Below, in pieces: positions 50,614-52,567 of a stretch of 64,000 nucleotides of DNA. A program made the translations under genes and the position numbers. Source of the stretch: Halorientalis persicus (GTDB taxonomy: Archaea; Halobacteriota; Halobacteria; Halobacteriales; Haloarculaceae); NCBI RefSeq assembly GCF_900110215.1, contig NZ_FOCX01000001.1, forward strand, positions 1 to 64,000. The letters are read 5' to 3'. The notes under the pieces are model-generated. The model ran no database searches, was not told where the DNA came from, and saw only the letters and a list, made by a program, of their open reading frames with translations. The stretch's first letter is position 1; each line of letters starts with the position of its first letter.

Positions 50614-50628
50614 CCACCACTTTTTACG

Positions 50629-50805
50629 TCGGGGGGTGCGCTTCGCGCACCCCCCGAAGCAAAAACTTGGGGAAAAAGGCGGGACTCGCGCTCCGCGCGA
50701 GTCCCGGGATACCCGCGAGCGACCACGGGGAGCGAGTGGGTGCTCGTCAGAGCCCTGCTCTGACGGTGACCGGCGCGCCGCCGGCGCGCGGATGCTGGAC
50801 ATCCG
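50629..50805. repeat. Array of six hairpins between convergent genes
   Basis: In order: GGGGGGTGCG/CGCACCCCCC around CTTCG (50631-50655, extended to 12 pairs at 50629-50657); GGGACTCGCG/CGCGAGTCCC around CTCCG (50681-50705); imperfect CGAGCGACCAC/GTGGGTGCTCG (50716-50746); CGTCAGAGC/GCTCTGACG around CCT (50745-50765); GCGCGCC/GGCGCGC (50773-50789); CGGATG/CATCCG around CTGGA (50789-50805). It may double as a bidirectional terminator for maeB-like and the convergent membrane gene. Confidence 0.85.
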
Positions 50806-52021: not shown

Positions 52022-52567
52022 ATGCCCACCGCTCGCGACATCATGACGACCGACGTGGAGACGGTCGCACCCGACGACGACGTGGCCGAAGTCCTCACGA
52101 AACTGGCACAGGCGGCGTTCAACGGCTACCCGGTCACCGACGGCGACGAACTCGTCGGCATCGTCACGCAGGGCGACCTGGTCGACCTGTTCCAGCCCTC
52201 CGACCGGACGCTGTGGATCCCCGTCGGCTTCCCGCCGTTCCTGGAGAGCCTCACCTACGGGTTGGATCTCTCGTGGGACAACCTGGACGTGGGGCTGGAC
52301 ATGGTTCGTAACTCCGGGAAGTCGATCAGCGACGTGATGACGGCCGACGTGGTGACGGTCGCACCCGACGACGATATCGACCGCGTGCTGGCGCTACTGG
52401 CCGACAGCGAGCGGGACATCAATCGTCTGCCGGTCGTCGAGGACAGCGAGGCGCGAAGCGCCTCTGGCAACCGGACGCAGTCCGGCGACGGCCGTGTCGT
52501 CGGGATCATCGCCCGCGAGGATCTACTGCGGGCGCTTCGCGACGAGCGACTCGAGAAGGCGGGGTAG
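52022..52567 (+). CDS. CBS-domain protein with an in-frame palindromic insert
   Basis: 181 residues, two CBS motifs: ARDIMTTDVETVAPDDDVAE (about 4-23) and ISDVMTADVVTVAPDDDIDR (about 101-120). Each is followed by the usual FNGYPVTDGDELVGIVTQGD and INRLPVVED...GRVVGIIARE strands. In the second repeat, 15 extra residues (SEARSASGNRTQSGD, about 142-156) separate VVED from GRVVGIIARED, where homologous CBS domains go straight through. That insert is encoded by the palindrome pair at 52448-52485. Likely binds adenine nucleotides; partner unknown. Confidence 0.85.
   Translation: MPTARDIMTTDVETVAPDDDVAEVLTKLAQAAFNGYPVTDGDELVGIVTQGDLVDLFQPSDRTLWIPVGFPPFLESLTYGLDLSWDNLDVGLDMVRNSGKSISDVMTADVVTVAPDDDIDRVLALLADSERDINRLPVVEDSEARSASGNRTQSGDGRVVGIIAREDLLRALRDERLEKAG
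52445..52489. repeat. 45-base palindromic insertion within CBS gene
   Basis: Two adjacent perfect hairpins: GAGGCGC-GAA-GCGCCTC (52448-52464) and CCGGAC-GCA-GTCCGG (52471-52485). Flanking GAC codons (52442-52444 and 52487-52489) could be a target duplication. The core GCGCGAAGCGC of the first is the reverse complement of GCGCTTCGCGC in the first hairpin at 50631-50655. Confidence 0.7.

Follow-up and report, generated by a model that had tools for sequence, protein, structure and literature searches.

The 45-nt palindromic insert in a CBS-domain gene of Halorientalis persicus is best explained, with a probability that we put at roughly 80%, as one copy of a mobile palindromic unit, about 45 nt long, that is non-autonomous and specific to haloarchaea. 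That it is a mobile element inserted in frame is almost certain, and it is very probably translated as peptide. It lies within a 64,000-nt stretch of DNA (NZ_FOCX01000001.1, positions 1–64,000, forward strand; hereafter the window), in which the following features were placed.

52022..52567, + strand: host gene for a 181-aa protein with two CBS domains; the insert falls in the second CBS repeat, at a turn joining two strands (Pfam CBS; AlphaFold model)
52442..52444, + strand: target-side GAC (Asp codon), insertion site GAC/G; kept in the empty orthologue, with GAC here in 31 of 41 independent genic copies
52445..52489, + strand: two-hairpin, probably mobile unit of 45 nt (AGCG-hp1-TGGCA-hp2-GAC), 15 codons, SEARSASGNRTQSGD; from near-identical dispersed copies and absence from CBS orthologues, ends from paralogous empty sites
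52448..52464, + strand: hairpin 1, stem GAGGCGC/GCGCCTC, loop GAA (C-GNA-G); from the sequence and from stem covariation in 41 independent genic copies and in the set found by hairpin 2 only
52470..52486, + strand: hairpin 2, stem (G/A)CCGGAC/GTCCGGC, loop GCA; from the alignment of copies
52487..52489, + strand: terminal GAC of the unit; GAC in 33 of 41 copies, and from paralogous empty sites

The insert, AGCGAGGCGCGAAGCGCCTCTGGCAACCGGACGCAGTCCGGCGAC, is in frame with the two-CBS open reading frame, and its letters match the first-pass annotation, which had described fifteen extra codons made almost entirely of two perfect hairpins and bounded by GAC. The inner palindrome of hairpin 2, CCGGAC-GCA-GTCCGG, occupies 52471–52485; an A at 52470 in the window copy removes the outermost pair and encodes Asn instead of Ser. 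Both loops are closed by C-G and so take the C-GNA-G form, which is that of very stable DNA mini-hairpins. The isolated 45 nt folded into two hairpins, as DNA (−14.8 kcal/mol, z −2.7) and as RNA (−23.0, z −2.5). In an AlphaFold model of the host (shallow alignment, mean pLDDT 65), strands were predicted at residues 135–140 and 158–164, while residues 142–155 had pLDDT <50 and no secondary structure, as for a putative disordered loop.

CBS orthologues are filled at the identical site in G000 (the H. persicus genome), G002 and G003. Orthologues in three congeners lack the element. That in G005 is empty (VIE/DGAVVGIIARQD): it differs by exactly 45 nt and keeps the target-side GAC, as had been predicted for close relatives. 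G006 is likewise empty, and G004 has a short unrelated loop. Had every orthologue carried the insert, with conserved amino acids over unconserved DNA, an ordinary loop would have been the natural reading; we found the DNA palindrome conserved and the amino acids covarying.

Copies within and between genes

Near-identical genic copies were found elsewhere in the H. persicus genome, in a CBS–MaoC gene (C50:139008), a PAS–histidine kinase gene (C50:159085) and a PolB-like gene (C51:296932), together with an intergenic relative (C42:133400) whose hairpin 1 is different in sequence but perfectly paired. A covariance model built from the four genic copies of this genome recovered the window copy far beyond chance, with an E-value of about 4e-18, and the three other genic copies and one intergenic relative at E <1e-9. 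A different shared element, GACCGAGGTTCTGCGCGAAGCGCAGGTTCTCGGGCGTGGTTC, was seen in the same genome at C77:8893 (L028) and C82:13460 (L029); in L028 it is adjoined by a tRNA-like sequence, GGTTCGAATCCCG.

At a loose threshold (E ≤ 0.1) the model matched 35 of 39 relatives. At E ≤ 1e-6 it matched 28 of 43 genomes of the order and none of 204 outside it, where the 43/204 split was inferred from listing order and lower GC outside the order could contribute to the zero. The exact consensus 22-mer of hairpin 2 had 75 occurrences, distributed over 62 of the 391 class genomes, and its reversed control had none. When a strict genome-wide pattern, which proved too strict, was run on the named genome collection, the matches were limited to Halolamina salifodinae and Halorientalis marina. 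Six haloarchaeal records of a plasmid collection matched, whereas no match to the unit was found among 50,697 phage records, and phages were rejected as carriers.

The unit occurs both inside and between genes, as a palindrome search of the genome had been expected to reveal, in H. persicus and across haloarchaea; it was seen in genes, in intergenic mosaics, within palindromes next to tnpB-like genes and inside further units of its own kind. The empty orthologues, with the copies dispersed in unrelated genes and intergenic DNA, support the proposal that a small mobile palindrome can land in genes and be tolerated as peptide.

The relationship that had been proposed between hairpin 1 and a hairpin array at 50631–50655 was not supported: only an 11-nt core, GCGCGAAGCGC, is in common, and the array scored 13.8 bits, over hairpin 1 only, at E 0.1. 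Kinship with this array (50614–50672 in full) was therefore rejected, and from its sequence it looks like a different, T-run-flanked palindrome family. This second dispersed family, CTTTTTCGCCCACGTTTTTGCCGCGAGTGG-TTCGCGCGAAGCGCGAA-CCCGAGCGGGAAAAAGGTGG, recurs at L016, L017, L023 and L024, flanked by T- and A-runs in a terminator-like arrangement. Short hairpins with the loop GAACGGAGTGA also recur between genes (L026 and other intergenic loci), and the intergenic two-hairpin units L039 and L084 are flanked by GAAC and GNAGTGA, as would result from insertion into that loop.

Reading frame, host proteins and hairpin pairing

By codon-usage scoring, 49 of 126 copies had coding sequence on both sides and none was classed as joining two different frames. 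Frame was kept in all 49, as follows from a usual unit (AGCG, hairpin 1, (T/C)GGCA, hairpin 2, GAC) of 45 nt, or 15 codons, without stops, and 43 of the 49 were read in the same sense frame (frame 0). Judged by eye, none of the six frames of the coding consensus contains a stop, and stops therefore do not account for this preference; the target codon (GAC, Asp) and the hydrophilic character of the peptide so encoded may do so. Most intergenic copies are 47 nt long, a length that would shift the frame, and only 18 of 51 have lengths compatible with the genic frame. A GTA loop, which makes a TAG, was present in just one of the 49 genic copies, compared with 18 of the 51 intergenic ones; the latter are interrelated, so that p-values are overstated.

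The 66 genic copies fall into 52 protein contexts, often in essential proteins. Pfam supported as hosts molybdopterin oxidoreductase, SDR, Sir2, MutS, a class I tRNA synthetase (called valyl-tRNA synthetase, ValRS, by inspection), PolD DP2, HisH-like amidotransferase, beta-CASP nuclease, HerA, NUDIX and ABC transporter proteins; plasmid records named PEP synthase, aconitase and CobN. The hosts MutS, Sir2, HerA, HisH, valyl-tRNA synthetase and PolD were seen in relatives. Genic copies sit at turns, often Asp-Gly, of conserved proteins. Against a solved relative of Sir2, which we take to be the Archaeoglobus protein, the insert forms an extra loop, with a 15-residue gap after FRG and before DG(L/I)W. 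In PEP synthase the insert, with the signature SDEQSSSGSRTQSGDG, is again an extra loop and takes the place of a short turn in the solved enzyme. A PDB search with HerA found no relative. The PEP synthase of Haloterrigena salifodinae plasmid pHTS220 (L287, 1568–3988) contains a clear insert, SDEQSSSGSRTQSGD, together with another that looks degenerate, GTDGASPSDRGTSSRAGE. At L125, L131, L137, L175, L176 and L180, the conserved NAVEHG (N-box) codons of histidine kinases (GTGGAGCACGG-CTCCAC) coincide with the left hairpin 1 arm, and host sequence is thereby mirrored in the right arm of the palindrome.

Across 41 independent genic copies, Watson–Crick pairing in the stems was 97.9% (hairpin 1) and 97.2% (hairpin 2), compared with 70.6% and 78.0% when arms were exchanged between copies, and several stem positions showed three or four pair types. 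These copies had been found with a structure model, which favours pairing, so covariation was recounted on 70 sites found by hairpin 2 alone; nearly all had a perfect 6–9 bp hairpin 1 directly upstream, in many sequences. Because the stems vary in sequence but stay complementary, the residues that they encode covary, and DNA structure is what is conserved in the unit, with the amino acids varying together. Some old, vertically inherited copies (L233, L240) carry stem mismatches, and pairing therefore seems to erode slowly once a copy sits in a gene. At one HerA site within a single genus, hairpin 1 was either GCGGAGC/GCTCCGC or GATGAGC/GCTCATC, reflecting either two insertions or a concerted change of both arms.

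Ends of the unit and how it may move

At the HerA site LEPVAVLY-DD/DGE-LKRRMTDR, 11 filled and 14 empty alleles differ by exactly 45 nt and are mixed inside genera g22, g42 and g52. A HerA tree built without the insert required seven state changes, at least four of them on well-supported branches, and the filled alleles clustered no more than shuffled labels. These changes may be gains, losses or both, and what looks like repeated use of the site could be an old insertion lost many times over instead of repeated gain. G025 has a larger intergenic repeat of which three copies (L110–L112) contain two 45-nt units (AGCG...GAC) that the sister copy L154 cleanly lacks, and in three genes a unit is nested inside another unit. 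The ends of the unit are fixed by these paralogous empty sites and nested copies: AGCG on one side and GAC on the other, give or take bases shared at the joint. The same 90-nt nested composite occurs in three different genes of three g19 genomes (L206, L210 and L213), which suggests that the composite itself moves. Insertion was precise, mostly right after GAC and before G, with target duplication of at most a shared terminal C, AC or GAC.

The precise ends, lack of duplication and two end hairpins recall the single-strand transposition of REP/RAYT and IS200/605 elements. By analogy with the ends of those elements, the unit may move as single-stranded DNA, its C-GNA-G mini-hairpins marking the two ends for a trans-acting nuclease or transposase; we give such ssDNA-hairpin transposition slightly under even odds, and hold it with less certainty than translation into peptide.

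Spread in trans by an IS200/IS605-type Y1 transposase active today, the route proposed for PATEs, is unlikely, if still a serious contender. It would suit the hairpins near both ends, the missing target duplication, the fixed insertion context AC/G and the 47-nt versions inside palindromes adjoining tnpB-like genes, and Y1_Tnp is present in the H. persicus genome. Yet no match to Y1_Tnp (IS200/605, RAYT) was found in G025, G018, G026, G029 or G005, all of which have unit matches; G025 is a two-contig, 99% complete genome with 40 loose covariance-model matches. A resident Y1-family transposase is thus not needed now, and an IS200/605 or RAYT enzyme residing in the genome was not supported as the necessary mover. 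The mover may have been lost from these genomes, several of them rich in copies, or belong to another family, or the copies there may have arrived from outside. Among relatives, 47-nt two-hairpin versions at L087, L089, L134, L136, L139, L142, L144 and L173 lie inside an outer palindrome, CCGCGCCGTGAAC...GACGGCGCGG, which is shared with long homologous flanks and, where checked, adjoins tnpB-like ORFs identified by inspection.

Less probable again is movement with no dedicated enzyme, by replication template switching or repair capture of hairpin-forming single strands, with quasipalindrome correction keeping the stems perfect. The nested palindromes and the compensatory stem differences at one site in orthologues (the two HerA stems above, and hairpin 2 in HisH) fit such a process, whereas the exact 45-nt ends and preferred target context look enzymatic.

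The two hairpins between matching GAC codons, and the insertion in essential enzymes, would also fit a mobile unit that the ribosome skips, like mitochondrial byps or T4 gene 60 with the matched GAC for take-off and landing, or that is spliced from the mRNA. We regard this as very improbable, since bypass or splicing would relax the constraint seen in 49 of 49 frame-keeping copies and in the near-absence of the TAG loop from genes, and the matching GAC is missing on the left in 10 of 41 and on the right in 8 of 41 genic copies. It is hardly credible that this is simply a CBS-protein loop of variable length, palindromic either by accident or because codon usage is GC-rich: the insert is in frame and in a loop, where G004 has another short loop, but the same 45-nt DNA recurs in unrelated proteins and between genes, the stems covary, the reversed 22-mer is absent from the 391 genomes, and the near-identical copies in the histidine kinase and PolB-like genes of the same genome refute it. 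Gene conversion between CBS paralogues was rejected, as it cannot explain copies in unrelated proteins.

Under the reading that we prefer, a mobile unit translated in place, the insert would be a flexible hydrophilic peptide tolerated by purifying selection, and an insertion would be lost if it shifted the frame, introduced a stop or landed within a folded core. A bolder version, doubtful as a whole, is that an order-wide element with a non-Y1 mover keeps reseeding the same Asp-Gly turns of essential genes, and that hairpin pairing rather than protein fitness dictates the linked amino-acid changes (A..A, E..S, G..P, V..T).

Comparison with known elements and significance

To our knowledge, protein-coding palindromes are known mainly from Rickettsia, Wolbachia and some REP-rich bacteria. 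We take the unit to be a haloarchaeal variant of this known kind of element, not previously described as far as the open-access literature shows; a search of that literature found no archaeal or haloarchaeal in-frame palindrome. Here such a palindrome is spread over many haloarchaeal families and lies in core enzymes (MutS, Sir2, HerA, PolD, valyl-tRNA synthetase, aconitase, PEP synthase), and single genera contain both filled and empty alleles. As many haloarchaea can be cultivated and several engineered, what moves such palindromes, and whether proteins gain usable new loops from them, are testable questions. Annotators should expect 15-residue inserts in haloarchaeal proteins, where comparison with bacterial structures would otherwise suggest lineage-specific adaptations in place of what is only a transposon.

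The nearest counterparts of the unit are Rickettsia palindromic elements and intragenic REPs, along with the SMR/PATE repeats of Haloquadratum. RU-type MITE-like repeats of enterobacteria are likewise small mobile repeats with open reading frames found inside genes, but are 103–168 bp long (PMC2759123), compared with 45 nt for the haloarchaeal unit. Closer in host are the SMR-A, PATE and IS605-type elements of Haloquadratum, described in the available text as transposase-free haloarchaeal repeats without target duplication (PMC3119063). SMR-A inserts within near-terminal palindromes of IS605/PATE elements according to the same text, and the 47-nt versions, which lie in such palindromes beside tnpB-like ORFs called by inspection, may do likewise. 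SMR-A is given there as about 110 bp with terminal inverted repeats, unlike a 45-nt unit with the ends AGCG and GAC, and that part of PMC3119063 makes no mention of in-frame insertion in genes. The hairpins and ends of the unit are as expected of non-autonomous elements derived from IS200/605, although likeness to their fixed targets is limited, with GAC in 31 of 41 copies. Translational bypass elements (byps) have matched flanking codons and no frame or stop constraint, whereas genic copies of the unit keep the frame, avoid the TAG loop and often lack matching GAC codons.

CGTC- and GTAG-tagged REPs, including intragenic REPs, are, in the accessible part of the source, likewise short palindromes, often paired and partly inside DNA repair and tRNA synthesis genes (Di Nocera 2013, PMC3733652). 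The reverse strand of the unit begins (C)GTC next to hairpin 2, recalling the CGTC tag: 33 of 41 copies end in GAC, mostly followed by G, and the fourth base is supplied by the target. CGTC REPs are defined in the same text by 8–9 bp stems opening with A-T pairs and by 4–5 nt loops, whereas the unit has mostly 7-bp GC-rich stems and 3-nt loops; GTAG-REPs are mobilised by RAYT, and the five genomes named above had no Y1 match. The REP species and phyla that this portion of PMC3733652 lists are all bacterial. The likeness to Rickettsia palindromic elements (RPE) that the first-pass annotation had drawn stands for behaviour, which is what was compared: the haloarchaeal unit is a 45-nt double hairpin spanning many families of one order, and RPEs are likewise palindromes, found between genes and within the reading frames of many unrelated proteins, where they are tolerated as extra peptide (PMC3733652).
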